Source of the DNA: Sporichthya brevicatena
GTDB lineage: Bacteria; Actinomycetota; Actinomycetes; Sporichthyales; Sporichthyaceae
DNA: 37,142 nt
Assembly: GCF_039525035.1 (NCBI RefSeq)
Contig: NZ_BAAAHE010000008.1
Span: forward strand, 47,475-84,616
Reading direction: 5' to 3'
Below are positions 4,865 through 37,142 of the stretch, one piece after another; the first letter of the stretch is position 1, and each line of letters begins with the position of its first letter. Below the pieces are notes generated by a model. That model was not told where the DNA came from. It saw only the letters and a program-made list of their open reading frames with translations, and did not search any database. A program made the position numbers and the translations under genes.

Positions 4865-4894
4865 CGTCGGGCCCGCTCCGCCTGGTCGTGAAAG

Positions 4895-4938
4895 AAAGGG
4901 TGACACCCCTTACTACGCAGTAAGGGGTGTCACCCTTT
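4895..4938. terminator. 44-bp palindromic bidirectional terminator, copy 1
   Basis: Two perfectly complementary 20-nt arms (4895-4914 and 4919-4938) enclose the loop ACGC. The arms begin AAAGGGTGACACCCC and end with a short T-run on each strand. The element lies between two convergent genes, so it can terminate both. An almost identical copy is at 9347-9390; the only difference is one loop base. Confidence 0.85.
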
Positions 4939-9337: not shown

Positions 9338-9346
9338 GATGTCACG

Positions 9347-9390
9347 AAAGGGTGACACCCCTTACTGCGCAGTAAGGGGTGTCACCCTTT
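9347..9390. terminator. 44-bp palindromic bidirectional terminator, copy 2
   Basis: The arms at 9347-9366 and 9371-9390 are perfect complements and identical to the arms at 4895-4938. The central GCGC makes the whole 44 bp one uninterrupted palindrome. It lies between convergent genes and ends in TTT on both strands. Confidence 0.85.
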
Positions 9391-9413
9391 CTTGACATTG
9401 GCGGGGCTGCGGG

Positions 9414-18960: not shown

Positions 18961-18989
18961 CGCCGTTGGAGATGACATCTCCAACGGCG
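18961..18989. terminator. Bidirectional hairpin terminator
   Basis: A 13-bp perfect stem (18961-18973 and 18977-18989, CGCCGTTGGAGAT arm) with the loop GAC lies between the small membrane-protein gene (+) and tRNA-Phe (-). Confidence 0.75.
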
Positions 18990-31785: not shown

Positions 31786-34065
31786 ATGTCCGACCTGGCC
31801 CCCACCACCGGTGCGGCGTCGGTGCGGCTGCTCGGGGTGACGGTCTGCGGGCCGGCGCCGATCGGGCGGGTGCACGTCCCGCTGTTCGAGCCGTTGCTCG
31901 CCCTCTACGGCCGCAACGGCGCCGGCAAGACGCGGATCCTGACCGCGATGATCGCCGCCCTGCGCGGGGAGCAGCAGGCCGACAGCTGGGGTCTGGTGCA
32001 CGTCCACGTCCCCGACGCGGAGGCCGAGTTCGTCGGCCGCGGGCCCGACCCGTGGCGGGACAACCTCGCCCGCGCGATGCGCGAGCACCTCAACCGGCTG
32101 CGCGGCGACGTCGTCGCGCACTTCGCCCGTCGGCGTGACGAGGAGTTCGAGGTCGGACCGAGCGACGACTACGCCGAGGTCCTCGACGACTTCCGCTCGT
32201 TCACCCAGGCCGTCGTGGACGAGGCGCACAGCCCGACGTCGCTGCGCGAGCTCGTCGGCGCGCACCTGGCCGCGCAGCAGATGTTGATGTCCGAGTTCGA
32301 GCACATCAACGACTTCATGCGCTTCCACAAGGCGGTGGTCGGCGAGATCACCCGCGGCGGGCACTACGTGCTGCGGGCGATCGGCACCCGCGAGGAGCCG
32401 CGCTGGTCCGTCTACGCCGCCGCGTCGGAGGAGGACGCCGCCTGCGCCGCGCTGCTGGAGCAGGACCGCGCGCTACCCCTCGACGACGAGGAGGCCGGCG
32501 ACCGGCTGCGCGCCGCCCTCGACGACGGGACCGTGCTCTCGAACTCCGGCTTCCCGTGGCGGGAGCTCTCGGACATCTCGGACGCGTTCATCTCCGGCCG
32601 CGGGTTCGTCGGGCCCGGGACCTCGCCCGAGCTCGGGACCGACGTCCGCACCGTGCCGTGGCCGCTGTGGGCGACCGTGCCGGTCGTCGAGGTGGCGACG
32701 ATCAGTGCGCCGCTCGTCGAGCTCGTCACCGACGAGACCAGTGCGGCCGACGTCGACCGGCTGACCCGCGACGAGGTGCTCCGCGCCGCCGGTGGGCAGA
32801 TGCTCGCGTCGTTCGCCGACGGCGGGGCGCGGTTCCACCCGAAGGTCGACCCGCTGCTCGCGCGGCTGACCGAGCTCGCGACCAAGTACCTGCGCGCGGT
32901 CTTCCCCGACGCCCCGGAGCTGGTGTTCGCCCCCGGCGACCCGAACGACTGGCTGGCCGGCGTGCTGCCGAGCTGGGTCGCGCGTTTCCCGCAGGCCGGG
33001 ACGGCGGCGCCGTCCACGCTGCCGCTCGCGGCGCTGTCCACCGCGCAGCGGCGCTGGGCCGCGCTGTCCGCCGCGCTGGCGGTGTCCGTGGCCGGCTCCG
33101 AGGCCCTGCCGGTGGTGTTCCTCTGCGACGAGCCCGAGGCCGGGCTGCACCGCCGGGCGGAGTCCGCGCTGCCGGACGCCCTCGTGCGCATCTCCGCCGA
33201 GTCCGGGTTGCGCATGGCGGTGGCGACGCACTCGCCGGCGATGCTCGACCCGCAGCGGGTCGCGCTGATGCACGTCACGCGGCTGGCGTCCGGGGCCGCG
33301 ACCGCGCGCGGGATGGACTTCGCGCTGCGTGAGGAGCTCGAGCGCGACACGATGCGCGAGGACCTCGGCCTCACCCCGGCCGACCTGCTGCAGATGGTGC
33401 GGTGCTTCGTCATCGTCGAGGGCAAGCACGACGAGGTCGTCCTCGGCTCGCTGCTGGCGCCGGACCTGGACTCGTGGTCGGTCATCTACCCCGTCGGCGG
33501 CGCGAAGCAGATGCAGTCGCTCGCGACGGCCGGCCTGATCTGGGACTTCACCGACGCCGCGATCGTGCTGGTGCTCGACAACATCGCGCGGGCCGCGATC
33601 CAGCCGGTGTGGGACAAGGCGCAGGCGGCGATCGCCCGTGGCGGCACCGAGTCCGCGATCCGGGCGCTGGTGCCGCTGGGCAAGATGCCCGGCGCCGAGG
33701 CGCGGTGGCTGCAGAACCTGCTGACCCGCGCGATCCGGGCCCGGCGGGCACACCGCATCAAGCTCGAGACGCTCTCCGCCCCCGACGTCATCTGCTACCT
33801 GCCGGCCGACGAGTTCGTCCCCGGCTCGACCTGGGACGAGTTGCTCGCCGAGTGGCGGGCCGCGTTCGAAGGCCGCGAGGCGACGAACCTGAAGGCCTTC
33901 CTGACGCAGCGTCACGGCGTCCAGTTCACGACCAATCAGATCGCCCGGATCGCGGCGAGTGCGAAGCCCGACGCGGAGCTGCAGGCGCTCGGGGCGCGGA
34001 TCCGGGAGCTCGGGACGCAGGGGTCCTGGCCGGCTCCCACCGCGCGGGGCCCGCGCCCGCGGTAG
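31786..34065 (+). CDS. OLD-family-like ABC ATPase with C-terminal TOPRIM domain
   Basis: Protein of 759 aa with an SMC/RecF-type ATPase and a TOPRIM domain, the arrangement of the OLD (overcoming lysogenisation defect) family. Walker A is GRNGAGKT (42-49); a signature-like LSTAQRRWAAL lies near residue 420; Walker B is CDEPEAGLH (447-455), with a following ATHSP H-loop. The TOPRIM domain starts with CFVIVEGKHDE (Glu545) and contains VLVLDNIARA with Asp598. The usual DxD of active OLD nucleases is here D-N-I, so the second metal-binding Asp is missing. Many OLD proteins act in phage defence, often with a helicase (for example Gabija), but no such partner is adjacent. It may be an altered or regulatory member. 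The start is supported by the leaderless -10 box. Confidence 0.8.
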   Translation: MSDLAPTTGAASVRLLGVTVCGPAPIGRVHVPLFEPLLALYGRNGAGKTRILTAMIAALRGEQQADSWGLVHVHVPDAEAEFVGRGPDPWRDNLARAMREHLNRLRGDVVAHFARRRDEEFEVGPSDDYAEVLDDFRSFTQAVVDEAHSPTSLRELVGAHLAAQQMLMSEFEHINDFMRFHKAVVGEITRGGHYVLRAIGTREEPRWSVYAAASEEDAACAALLEQDRALPLDDEEAGDRLRAALDDGTVLSNSGFPWRELSDISDAFISGRGFVGPGTSPELGTDVRTVPWPLWATVPVVEVATISAPLVELVTDETSAADVDRLTRDEVLRAAGGQMLASFADGGARFHPKVDPLLARLTELATKYLRAVFPDAPELVFAPGDPNDWLAGVLPSWVARFPQAGTAAPSTLPLAALSTAQRRWAALSAALAVSVAGSEALPVVFLCDEPEAGLHRRAESALPDALVRISAESGLRMAVATHSPAMLDPQRVALMHVTRLASGAATARGMDFALREELERDTMREDLGLTPADLLQMVRCFVIVEGKHDEVVLGSLLAPDLDSWSVIYPVGGAKQMQSLATAGLIWDFTDAAIVLVLDNIARAAIQPVWDKAQAAIARGGTESAIRALVPLGKMPGAEARWLQNLLTRAIRARRAHRIKLETLSAPDVICYLPADEFVPGSTWDELLAEWRAAFEGREATNLKAFLTQRHGVQFTTNQIARIAASAKPDAELQALGARIRELGTQGSWPAPTARGPRPR

Positions 34066-34148
34066 GACGTCCGGTCCGGACCCGGATTCGGAGAACAGTC
34101 CGCGCTGACGGGATACTGGGGGCAGACGACCTTCTAAGGGGGCCTCCC

Positions 34149-35348
34149 ATGGCGCTGGACTTCACGCTTCCCGAGCGGGTGACCGAATGGCGTGACCGCA
34201 TCCGCGACTTCGTCGAGGAGGTCGTGGTCCCGCGCGAGCAGGAGGCCTTCGCCAAGGGCGCCGACGACGACCTGCGCCGTGAGCTGCAGGCCGCGGCCAA
34301 GGAGGCCGTGGTGTTCGCCCCGCAGGCGGCGGCGGACCTCGGCGGCGGCGGTTTCTCCCTCGCGGAGTCCGCGATCCTGCTCGAGGAGGCCGGCACCTCG
34401 CTGCTCGGTCCGCTGGCGCTGAACTGCCACGCCCCCGACGAGGGCAACATCCACATGCTCAACGTCATCGCGACGCCGGCGCAGCGCGAGAAGTACCTGC
34501 GCCCGCTCGCGCAGGGTGACGTCCGCTCCTGCTTCTCGATGACCGAGCCCCCGCCCGGCGCCGGCTCGGACCCGAGCGCGATGCGCACCACCGTCAAGAA
34601 GGTCTCCGGCGGCTGGGTCATCAACGGCGAGAAGCACCTGATCACCGGCGCCGAGGGCGCGGCGTTCTCGATCGTCATGGCCAAGGGCGGTGGCGGCGAG
34701 GACGGCACCCGCGGCGCGACGATGCTCCTCGTCGACACCGACAACCCGGGCTGGCAGATCAAGGGCCACCCGACCACGCTCGACTCGACCATGCCGGGCG
34801 GGCACTGCCGCGTCGGCCTGAACGAGGTCTTCGTGACCGACGAGGCCGTGCTCGGCGAGCCGGGCCGCGGCTTCGCGTACGCGCAGGTCCGCCTCGCGCC
34901 GGCGCGCCTGACGCACTGCATGCGCTGGCTCGGCGCCGCCCGCCGCGCGCACATGATCGCCCTGCACCGCGCCGTCCACCGCGAGATGTGGGGCAACTCC
35001 CTCGCCGACCTCGGCATGGCGCAGCAGATGATCGCCGAGAACGAGATCGACCTCACCGCCGCCCGCGCCCTGCTGCTGCAGACCTGTCTCGAGGTCGAGA
35101 ACTCCGAGGCCGCCGCCGCGACCGAGGCCTCCTCCAAGGCGAAGGTCTTCATCTCCGAGGCCACCAGCCGCGTCGTCGACCGTTCCGTCCAGCTCGCCGG
35201 CGGCATGGGCACCACCGACGACCTCGTCATCGGCCGCATCTACGCCGAGATCCGCGCCTTCCGGATCTACGACGGCGCCACCGAGGTCCACAAGATGTCG
35301 ATCTCCAAGCGCGCCGTCAGCCGCGTCCGCGACCAGCTCGGCGGCTGA
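34149..35348 (+). CDS. Acyl-CoA dehydrogenase (FadE-type)
   Basis: Flavoenzyme of 399 aa that introduces a 2,3-double bond in an acyl-CoA and passes electrons to ETF, probably as a soluble homotetramer. Typical segments: N-terminal helical domain from LPERVTEWRDRIRDFVEE, the FAD/substrate motif CFSMTEPPPGAGSDPSAMRT, the beta-domain TGAEGAAFSIVMAKGG with NGEKHLITG, and the C-terminal QLAGGMGTTDDLVIGRIYAE and FRIYDGATEVHKMSISKR, which includes the expected catalytic acid region. The closest type appears to be the ACAD10/11-like FadE group. The ATG at 34149 has AAGGGGG (34135-34141) 7 nt upstream. Chain preference is not predictable. A large inverted repeat follows its stop. Confidence 0.93.
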   Translation: MALDFTLPERVTEWRDRIRDFVEEVVVPREQEAFAKGADDDLRRELQAAAKEAVVFAPQAAADLGGGGFSLAESAILLEEAGTSLLGPLALNCHAPDEGNIHMLNVIATPAQREKYLRPLAQGDVRSCFSMTEPPPGAGSDPSAMRTTVKKVSGGWVINGEKHLITGAEGAAFSIVMAKGGGGEDGTRGATMLLVDTDNPGWQIKGHPTTLDSTMPGGHCRVGLNEVFVTDEAVLGEPGRGFAYAQVRLAPARLTHCMRWLGAARRAHMIALHRAVHREMWGNSLADLGMAQQMIAENEIDLTAARALLLQTCLEVENSEAAAATEASSKAKVFISEATSRVVDRSVQLAGGMGTTDDLVIGRIYAEIRAFRIYDGATEVHKMSISKRAVSRVRDQLGG

Positions 35349-35373
35349 CCCGCCCCCGCCCCCTCGCTTCACC

Positions 35374-35672
35374 ACCCCCACCCTCGCTTCACCGGCCCCA
35401 CCGCGCGCTTCACCAGCTGAACCCCCGCTTCACACGTCCGGCCGGGCGAGTGAAGGTGGTTCTGGCTGGTGAAGCTGCGCGCGGGGACGGCGGCCGGCCG
35501 CCTGCCGGCCCAGGTGAGGACGGCGTCGACAACCTCTCGTCCGCGGCGCCACCGCTGGACCGGAGCGCCGCCTTCACCGGCCGTGACCACCTTCACCGGC
35601 CCGGTCGGGCGGGTGAAGCGAGGGCTCAGCTGGTGAAGCGCGCGGGGGAGCCGGTGAAGCCGAGGTGGGGGC
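35374..35672. repeat. 299-bp intergenic element with two inverted 102-bp arms
   Basis: This accounts for the gene-free stretch 35349-35682. The left arm (35374-35475) and the reverse complement of the right arm (35571-35672) align without gaps, with 84 of 102 bases identical by hand count. A 95-bp spacer lies between them and contains the palindrome GGCGGCCGGCCGCC (35489-35502). Each arm carries GCTTCACC-type octamers first and GGTGAAG-type octamers after, so each arm can also fold on itself. One further CTTCACC lies just before the element (35366-35372). No protein-like gene is evident. Confidence 0.9.
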
Positions 35673-35682
35673 GGCGGCGTCG

Positions 35683-36363
35683 TCAGAGGGTGGCGGCCCA
35701 GGCGAGGAGGGCGGCGAGGTACTCGCGGCGGAGCTCCGGGGTCGCGAGGTGGTGCGGGCCGGACAGGGTGTGGCGGGTCAGCCGGGCCGGGTCGACGGCG
35801 TCGACGTAGCCGGCGATCGTCTCCCGGGGGATGACGGCGTCGCCGTCGGCGTCGACGAGCTGGACGGGGCCGCCGAACGCCCGCAGGACGCGCAGGGCTC
35901 GGCTGTCGGCGGGGTAGAGGTCCTCGGGGCGGCGGACGTCCGCGCGGAAGCGGGGCTCGTGCGGGGCGTCGAAGCCCTCGTCGAGGTAGTTCGCCGGGAC
36001 GCGCAGCGACAGTGCCGCGACCTCGCGCTCCCCGGCGGCGACGAGGCTCAGGTAGGCGCCGAAGCTCGCGCCGACGAGCCCGATCCGGGCGTCCGGGACG
36101 CGGACGCGCAGTTCGTCGACCATCCCGACGACGTCGGCGACCCAGTCCGCGCGGGAGATCTCCGTGCGCTCGCCGCCGCTCTGCCCGTGCCCGCGCAGGT
36201 CGTGAGCGAGGGCGGGGAAGCCGGCGCCGGCCAACGCGGCCGGGATGTCGGTGGGCCGCGCACTTCCCCAGCCGTGGGTCACGACGAACGCTAGATTCCT
36301 GGTGCCGGGGTAGAAGTCCGCGGCGAGTTCGACGCCGGCGGAGGTGCGAGTGATCCGGTCCAC
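35683..36363 (-). CDS. Alpha/beta hydrolase (esterase/peptidase-like)
   Basis: Cytosolic alpha/beta-hydrolase of 226 aa. The oxyanion strand is FVVTHGWGSA, then a HDLRGHGQSGG loop. The nucleophile elbow is LVGASFGAYLSL with Ser in GASFG, the acid is probably in LVDADGDAVIP, and the histidine is in SGPHHLATP. It looks complete for the family. A hydrolytic role on an ester or amide is likely, but the substrate is unknown. The GTG at 36363 is chosen since GAGAAT lies exactly 6 nt upstream and the N-terminus (DRITRTSAGVELAADFYPG) aligns with the first strands of such hydrolases. Its first 14 nt overlap the 5' end of the divergent L,D-transpeptidase gene. Codon use resembles its neighbours. Confidence 0.88.
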   Translation of the reverse strand: MDRITRTSAGVELAADFYPGTRNLAFVVTHGWGSARPTDIPAALAGAGFPALAHDLRGHGQSGGERTEISRADWVADVVGMVDELRVRVPDARIGLVGASFGAYLSLVAAGEREVAALSLRVPANYLDEGFDAPHEPRFRADVRRPEDLYPADSRALRVLRAFGGPVQLVDADGDAVIPRETIAGYVDAVDPARLTRHTLSGPHHLATPELRREYLAALLAWAATL

Positions 36364-37096
36364 GCGGCCATTCTCGACGCGTGCGTCCGTGGGCAGCCTG
36401 GCGGTCCTGCTGGTCGTCACCGCGCTCGGCCCGGTCGACGGGGCGCGGGCGCAGGAGACACGCGAGTCGGCGACCGTGGTGGCGAGCGGGTCCAAGCTCG
36501 CGGAGTCCCGGCTCAAGGGGCTGGGGTGCTTCATCGGACCCTCGGCGTCCGAGGGCATGCGGCTCAAGGCGGCGACCATCCGCTTCCAGGCCGCGAACGG
36601 CCTGAGACAGACGGGCCGGCTCGGCGGTCCGACGATGAAGCGCCTGACCTCCGGCAAGGGCAAGAGCTGCACGGACCGCCCGGTGCCGACGCGGACGGGC
36701 CAGGGCCGGCGCATCGTCATGAGCCAGGGCCAGAACTGGCTGTGGCTGGTCAAGGAGGACGGCACCGTCCTCGCCCAGGGCGGCATCGTCGACAACGACT
36801 GGCTGCCCCAGCGCACGTACCGGACCGGCGCGCAGTGCGGGAAGCCCGCCCGCTCCCGGTACCGCAGCGACCGCAGCGGAGCGCTCCGGATCGACTGGTT
36901 CGTCCGGTTCCACGACTGCATCGTCGGGTTCCACCAGATCCCGGTCAGCAAGCGCACCGGCCAGCCGATCCACCCGGACTACTACGCCGGCACCGACCTC
37001 TCGAAGTCCCACGGCTGCATCCGGATGCCCCTGCCGCTGATCAAGAAGCTCTACCGCTTCGCCGCCCAGCCGACGAAGGTCGTCGTCACCCGCTGA
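36350..37096 (+). CDS. Secreted L,D-transpeptidase (YkuD) with peptidoglycan-binding-like domain
   Basis: Exported 248-aa protein. A basic n-region (MIRSTRPFSTR) and hydrophobic core (SLAVLLVVTALGPV) end at a likely GARAQ cleavage site. A short peptidoglycan-binding-like module follows (LKGLGCFIGPS..RFQAANGLRQTGRLG), then the YkuD domain with HQIPVSKRTGQPIHPDYYAG and the catalytic SHGCIRMP motif (Cys223). It should form 3-3 crosslinks in peptidoglycan in the cell wall, or attach proteins to it. The GTG at 36350 is preferred because GGAGG (36340-36344) lies 5 nt upstream; starts at 36344 and 36389 are also in frame. The preferred start makes a 14-bp head-to-head overlap with the hydrolase gene. 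Confidence 0.87.
   Translation: MIRSTRPFSTRASVGSLAVLLVVTALGPVDGARAQETRESATVVASGSKLAESRLKGLGCFIGPSASEGMRLKAATIRFQAANGLRQTGRLGGPTMKRLTSGKGKSCTDRPVPTRTGQGRRIVMSQGQNWLWLVKEDGTVLAQGGIVDNDWLPQRTYRTGAQCGKPARSRYRSDRSGALRIDWFVRFHDCIVGFHQIPVSKRTGQPIHPDYYAGTDLSKSHGCIRMPLPLIKKLYRFAAQPTKVVVTR
36364..36375 (-). promoter_or_regulatory. Possible leaderless -10 box of the hydrolase
   Basis: GAGAAT (36370-36375, minus strand) lies 6 nt before the GTG at 36363. It lies inside the divergent gene's signal-peptide region. Confidence 0.35.
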
Positions 37097-37106
37097 CCTT
37101 CGGCCC

Positions 37107-37142
37107 CGCCCCGCCCCGCCCCCGCCCGCTTCACCAGCCACC
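37107..37142 (+). repeat. Probable third copy of the GCTTCACC repeat, cut by the window edge
   Basis: Directly after the L,D-transpeptidase stop, C-rich sequence leads into CGCTTCACCAGCCACC (37127-37142). This resembles the C-rich lead-in and first CGCTTCACC of the element downstream of the acyl-CoA dehydrogenase gene. Only the start is visible. Confidence 0.5.

Follow-up and report, generated by a model that had tools for sequence, protein, structure and literature searches.

The window, the whole 37,142-nucleotide stretch of Sporichthya brevicatena DNA that was analysed, contains a 299-bp intergenic element between two genes that converge, as the initial annotation had stated, with a plus-strand stop at 35348 and a minus-strand stop at 35683. 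The upstream flank is an acyl-CoA dehydrogenase-like gene within the plus-strand ORF at 33402-35348 (true start further downstream), which ends 18 nt before the first hexamer of the element, and the downstream flank is an alpha/beta-hydrolase-like gene on the minus strand at 35683-36362 (start approximate, recognised by eye in the minus-strand ORF at 35683-36957), whose stop lies 23 nt after the last hexamer.

The two arms of the element, at 35374-35475 and 35571-35672, align without gaps as reverse complements with 84 identities over 102 nt, confirming a count that had been made by hand, and sliding the register by 1-3 bases reduced a 103-nt arm comparison from 86 identities to 30-40. A repeat search of the window returned this arm pair as its longest inverted repeat (103 nt, 83%), and the sequence GCTTCACC occurred 12 times in the window compared to 1.0 ± 1.0 times in shuffles, with 7 of the 12 occurrences inside the 299-bp element. 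Each arm is a partial palindrome, as annotated, in which CTTCAC hexamers (>) come first and GTGAAG hexamers (<) follow. Unit 1, a palindromic array on the plus strand at 35367-35474, has CTTCAC at 35367, 35387, 35408 and 35428 and GTGAAG at 35450 and 35469, giving the order >>>><< with start-to-start spacings of 20, 21, 20, 22 and 19, and carries its extra hexamers outward. It is followed by a 97-bp spacer (35475-35571) and by unit 2, the inverted partner on the minus strand at 35572-35659, with CTTCAC at 35572 and 35591 and GTGAAG at 35613, 35633 and 35654, in the order >><<< with spacings of 19, 22, 20 and 21. The spacing of the octamers had been suspected of being conserved, and the hexamer starts do lie 19-22 bases apart; the palindrome itself is inexact, the adjoining linkers pairing only in part. 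Unit 1 has an orthologous copy in a sister species, with an inner part that is 97% identical, and the pair behaves as two repeat copies in opposite orientation, one of the origins that had been proposed for it. At the edge of the window, a C-rich lead-in followed by CGCTTCACCAGC, whose similarity to the element had been pointed out, proved to open a further array of the element's own family, with its first hexamer at 37129-37142 on the plus strand; the array runs on outside the window to about 37226 (84603-84700 of contig C8 of the genome). The element had not been recognised as a known family, in agreement with an Rfam search that gave no meaningful match, its sole match being a sub-threshold miRNA outside the element.

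Dispersal and turnover of the repeat family

Copies were sought in the genome that contains the window (G000; 5.2 Mb in 89 contigs) and in the complete genome of a sister species of the same genus (G001), the alignable DNA of the two being about 92% identical. Searching the whole genome with the element found at least 16 loci in G000 (E < 1e-4, own locus included), as expected from the prediction of a dispersed family, and many of these loci match in both orientations because they are palindromes. Copy number was comparable in the sister species, with 19 positions of the element's subfamily, type A, in the 1.62 Mb examined. The core of the family is CTTCAC N14 CTTCAC N15-16 GTGAAG N13-14 GTGAAG, with a distance of 61 bases between the outermost hexamer starts in almost every copy of the genus, and extra hexamers, where found, sit on the outer side, usually 21 bases off, making units of 67-110 bp that are built of CTTCAC/GTGAAG hexamers. 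The half-pattern GTGAAG-N13-15-GTGAAG had 84 matches in the sister genome versus 1 for the reversed control. Hexamer distances cluster near whole helical turns (R = 0.82, a value to be taken with caution as the copies are related), and in the aligned copies no constant tetranucleotide, such as the GTAG/GGTG- or CGTC-type tag of REPs, was seen by eye outside the hexamers. The copies fall into two subfamilies, type A (CTTCACCAGC) and type B (CTTCACTCGCC). Related arrays in which CTTCCCTCGCC replaces CTTCACTCGCC adjoin CTTCAC arrays at four loci (L156, L141, L143 and L150) and perhaps represent a further specificity.

The specificity for CTTCAC is rare. An exact four-hexamer pattern, scanned against 85,000 species (a set from which the own genome and its near relatives may be left out), occurred in 15 stretches of Pseudonocardia sp. 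CNS-004, in 2 of Auraticoccus cholistanensis and once in each of two Bacteroidota MAGs, and a three-hexamer pattern was found only in the own genome among 396 genomes of the phylum and only in Pseudonocardia CNS-004 among 200 genomes of the Pseudonocardia order, with zero control matches in both sets. Hexamer and spacing are kept across genera and the linkers differ (CTTCACacac in Pseudonocardia, CTTCACagccg in Auraticoccus), and dispersed CTTCACACA arrays are present in the CNS-004 genome; this coincidence of hexamers between genera carries no weight in the argument that follows. The Bacteroidota matches (L085 2263-2328 and L084 2662-2728) are AT-rich with the same hexamers and spacing, and these two genomes gave no match to the AbiEi/nuclease-like protein described below and do contain Y1 transposases; the matches may be palindromes that share these hexamers by chance, or may belong to another system. 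The PHO boxes of Streptomyces (GTTCACC) are 11-bp repeats and differ from the CTTCAC arrays in spacing, and nothing in a paper examined on Porphyromonas-type repeats placed these among the relatives of the family.

Attachment to gene 3′ ends, which the initial annotation considered probable, is not supported as the rule, as arrays lie between convergent, tandem and divergent genes alike. Substitution-phase gene calls, used as a check after a simple codon-based caller had mis-called the gene beside the element, placed 10 of 35 array clusters between convergent, 16 between tandem and 9 between divergent genes, compared to 63:280:63 for all neighbouring genes, and some of these calls are uncertain, since individual ones can be wrong and those at the window element, whose flanking genes do converge, are among the errors. 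Convergent sites are enriched, yet they are not required, and several copies start no more than about 20 nt from stop codons.

Fifteen of the own-genome regions examined have syntenic regions in the sister species, and nearly all carry an array at the same place in both. Movement is therefore slow, since most copies share sites in the two species. Arrays at shared sites differ in hexamer number, in local duplications and by switches between type A and type B, and two arrays of the sister species have an empty site in the own genome. The first is a unit directly after a TGA stop that is absent in G000 and in the outgroups G003 and G004, and is therefore best read as a gain in the sister species; no target-site duplication was evident at either empty site. 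At one locus of the sister species (L148 9746-10172), an array has expanded with a period of ~31 bp, or three helical turns, at a place that holds one unit in the own genome.

A gene bracketed by the arrays, and its paralogues

The own-genome site that matches one of the arrays specific to the sister species holds an AbiEi-type gene bracketed by another palindrome (TGTCAGCC with CTGCGGGATGACGTCCCGCAG), and a search with that AbiEi-type protein found a paralogue whose gene, in both species, occupies precisely the interval between two CTTCAC arrays. This partner gene of the CTTCAC family is a single-copy chromosomal gene (G001:C1:2769757-2770713; G000:C12:49783-50739) with type A arrays on both sides in inverted orientation. 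In the sister species (locus L257), an array >>><< at 1299-1386, the gene at 1480-2439 and an array >><<< at 2493-2580 are arranged like the window element (>>>><<, 97 bp, >><<<), the arrays being inverted and their extra hexamers facing outward; a contig end truncates the second array in G000. The type A flanks matched with a score of 68.0 against a control 99.5th percentile of 27.4, and inverted repeat copies likewise bracket the respective partner gene at L256, L232 and other loci. Type B arrays bracket another paralogue in both species (L246/L251), where the near symmetry of the palindromes makes the two copies score as direct. The two subfamilies therefore correspond to two paralogous genes, each bracketed by its own repeat. 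In Pseudonocardia sp. CNS-004, an AbiEi/nuclease-like gene (L285) is bracketed by near-identical arrays of the CTTCGCACA type (CTTCGCACAC...CTTCGCACAAGGCC), one base per hexamer from the dispersed CTTCACACA family of that genome; a gene bracketed by the exact CTTCACACA family was not found in Pseudonocardia, which gave only this CTTCGCACA sister, and none was found in Auraticoccus. Among the ORFs listed 3′ of the gene at L257, L246, L215 and L235, none was closely coupled, the arrays following at once at L257 and L246.

The partner protein of 319 aa has an AbiEi-type winged helix and an AbiEi C-terminal domain, followed by a PD-(D/E)XK-like (MTES_1575/DUF559-like) domain. PADLOC AbiEi models match residues 3-177 (E near 1e-16), Pfam gives AbiEi_4 (E 1e-11) and weakly AbiEi_1, and over the last 120-140 residues there are matches to MTES_1575 or DUF559 that fall below the Pfam cut-off; no relative was found in the PDB by sequence. 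The motifs ESxxES, RxD and ExDGxxKY are invariant in 11 paralogues that are 29-39% identical to the first (88% for the orthologue), as would be expected of a functional PD-(D/E)XK-type site, and form a putative active site. The partner genes are under purifying selection, with dN/dS of 0.155 and 0.118 between the two species at a dS near 0.5. Spread of the system by phage or plasmid was rejected, as the hexamer pattern was absent from viral contigs and the 299-bp element from plasmids, no relatives of the protein were found in viral contigs, and its relatives are rare in plasmids and phages.

Genes of this type and palindromic repeats are associated beyond the CTTCAC family. When the left and right flanks of paralogues were compared to each other against 600-1000 random windows, 12 of ~26 and 16 of 24 testable loci, in two overlapping locus sets, exceeded about the 99.5th percentile, and the matching flanks were nearly always palindromic and different from gene to gene. 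A case-control comparison across the class, taking one AbiEi_4 gene and one TetR gene as control per genome, found a flank match (score >= 22) for 13 of 28 AbiEi_4 genes versus 0 of 30 TetR genes (Fisher P = 1.2e-5), about half of the AbiEi_4 genes being without a flanking match. Dispersed loci of five such repeats were present in an unbiased 1.2 Mb of the sister genome (type B, 6; TGTCAG, 4; GGGTGACACC, 18; GTCGAC, 8; GGAGATGACATCTCC, 5), in which shuffled queries of these families had no matches, and 40 of the 43 copies of six families, counting 2 of type A, were intergenic in DNA of which 91% was called coding.

Two of these families also occur in the window. The GGGTGACACC family has one copy at 4891-4938 (AAAGGGTGACACCCCTTACTGCGCAGTAAGGGGTGTCACCC; 98% identity, E 3e-19) and a second at 9340-9397 (98%, E 2e-21), both of a ~58-bp palindrome (TGTCAAGAAAGGGTGACACCCCTTACTGCGCAGTAAGGGGTGTCACCCTTTCTTGACA) with an AbiEi/nuclease-like gene of its own (L239/L240), and a copy of the GGAGATGACATCTCC repeat lies at 18965-18985 (19/19, E 3e-5), its partner being a third paralogue (L245). 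The GGAGATGACATCTCC family shows clean insertions or expansions between the species at several syntenic places. In one such comparison (L175 6733-6785 with L152), a GGAGATGACATCTCC-type unit forms a clean 54-bp insertion in one species and the empty site reads CTCCACTG, which resembles the end of the element and is possibly a target half-site or a deletion scar. At another intergenic site (L157 4855-4911 and L144 5504-5559), one species has a GGGTGACACC-type palindrome and the other the palindrome of a different paralogue, as if sites were reused by different repeat families.

Interpretation and comparison with known systems

The pairing of repeat and gene suggests a kind of repeat-spreading system that has yet to be described. 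We read the 299-bp element as two non-autonomous copies, inverted with respect to each other, of a palindromic repeat of ~65-110 bp that belongs to a REPIN/RAYT-like system that has a nuclease-like partner in place of the HUH transposase, and assign this joint reading a probability of about 0.6. The partner protein, we infer, binds the CTTCAC/GTGAAG hexamers, cuts DNA and thereby causes copying. Its AbiEi domain would contact hexamers that lie on one helix face, two turns apart; such binding is suggested because AbiEi and Rv2827c bind multiple 23-bp inverted repeats (PMC7319586) and the hexamer distances are near whole helical turns. The nuclease-like domain may nick or cut at the array, and repair, strand transfer or template switching could copy a unit or a pair to another intergenic site, or expand an existing array, with related paralogues presumably acting likewise on their own palindromes. 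A hairpin or cruciform may also matter, or inverted-repeat correction may keep the arms alike, because linker pairing within units is modestly above chance.

The likeness to REP/REPIN-RAYT systems lies in a chromosomal partner gene bracketed by two inverted palindromes, as RAYT genes are by two inverted REPs (PMC2817692), in the many dispersed intergenic palindromes, often in inverted pairs with unrelated spacers, and in a private repeat for each partner gene (PMC2817692, PMC3116915). In contrast to RAYT, the partner here combines an AbiEi winged helix with a PD-(D/E)XK-like domain and is without Y1/HUH, and in contrast to the 20-40 bp palindrome of REPs the repeats are longer, consist of phased hexamers without a GTAG-type tag, and, in the CTTCAC family, have far fewer copies. 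Identity with REP/RAYT was rejected on the absence of the Y1 transposase and the difference in repeat anatomy, the Y1 (HUH) family PF01797 having no match in G000-G004, Pseudonocardia or Auraticoccus, with positive controls detected. The protein shares the N-terminal winged helix and AbiEi C-terminal domain of AbiEi and Rv2827c, the antitoxins of AbiE type IV toxin-antitoxin systems, but has an extra C-terminal nuclease-like domain, and the repeats lie on both sides of the gene and are dispersed in the genome. In AbiE the antitoxin is followed by the DUF1814 nucleotidyltransferase toxin AbiEii; no adjacent toxin was recognised here among the ORFs listed. Resemblance to DUF559 and MTES_1575 (Vsr-like) endonuclease domains consists of weak C-terminal profile matches and an ExDGxxK-type motif. 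Tn7 TnsA resembles the partner in its domain types, a PD-(D/E)XK nuclease and a winged helix used in DNA transposition; a TnsB/TnsC partner was not seen here.

A regulon is in our estimate unlikely; on that reading the AbiEi-like protein would act as a transcription factor with the arrays as operators, bracketing would reflect autoregulation, and the dispersed copies would be regulated sites. AbiEi and Rv2827c do control their own expression by way of multiple inverted repeats that precede their genes (PMC7319586), divergent genes flank some of the arrays, and the phasing of the hexamers suits a DNA-binding protein. However, arrays also occur on the downstream side of the gene, and others separate convergent genes, dispersed units resemble one another along their full length, which is more than binding needs, sister species differ in the presence and expansion of arrays, and the putative nuclease active site is invariant.

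We regard it as rather improbable that the arrays are MITE-like repeats of an undetected transposase, with the AbiEi/nuclease-like gene as cargo or chance neighbour. Like MITEs and BIMEs, the family forms non-autonomous inverted pairs and arrays in intergenic DNA, its gains and local duplications resemble those of mobile DNA, and the systematic transposase search covered Y1 only. Unlike those elements, it has no identified parental transposon, and its spacer is not an internal deletion product: derivation of the 299-bp element from the gene-bearing one by internal deletion (a simple internal-deletion MITE) was rejected, as the 97-bp spacer is unrelated, every score against the inner part of the gene-bearing element and against the spacers of other pairs being within the shuffled range. 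The class-wide tie to one protein family, with a private repeat for each paralogue, is hard to square with cargo, and the absence of Y1 matches in G000-G004, Pseudonocardia and Auraticoccus also argues against this explanation.

Bidirectional transcription terminators or 3′-end stabilisers, that is, structured RNAs at gene ends, would fit the strong hairpins (z -2.3 to -4.9) and the closeness of several copies to stop codons. That structure might be under selection had been raised at the outset and was upheld in part: linkers pair within a unit slightly more than when dealt among units, at 464 versus 432.5 ± 8.1 of 672 in this genus and 161 versus 150.4 ± 4.3 of 216 in Pseudonocardia, and so small an excess could come from subfamilies or inverted-repeat correction. 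Copies between divergent genes led us to reject a reading as terminators only, the hexamers are conserved rather than the paired linkers, the hexamer spacings, in copies that are related, are near whole DNA turns, and the bracketed genes are left without explanation, making structured RNA a very unlikely account. Least probable of all is a defence or selfish nuclease for which the arrays are tolerated or protective sites rather than mobile DNA, an idea in keeping with the match of the AbiEi domains to PADLOC models and with the nuclease-like active site, but one that fits less well than copying with repeat families that differ in age and copy number per paralogue and with turnover between the sister species.

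The REPIN/RAYT-like reading leads to a wider proposal, about which we are evenly divided, that AbiEi-PD-(D/E)XK proteins form a second class of enzymes, of independent evolutionary origin, by which dispersed palindromes in bacterial chromosomes are maintained and spread, each paralogue having its own repeat. To our knowledge, no system other than RAYT/REPIN has been well described in which the gene of a chromosomal enzyme is linked to a population of dispersed palindromes, and another one, based on an unrelated enzyme, would show repeated evolution of this lifestyle. Searches of the open-access PMC literature, preprints excluded, yielded no paper that connects AbiEi or DUF559 proteins with dispersed palindromes, which is weak evidence of novelty. 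The proposal is directly testable, as a binding sequence of its own is predicted for each paralogue. If it is true, a sizeable share of the intergenic palindromes in this class and in other actinobacterial genomes would be populations of such elements; a large group of genes whose present annotation goes no further than AbiEi-antitoxin-domain or DUF559 would gain a function, and many orphan palindromic repeats in actinobacteria would be accounted for.
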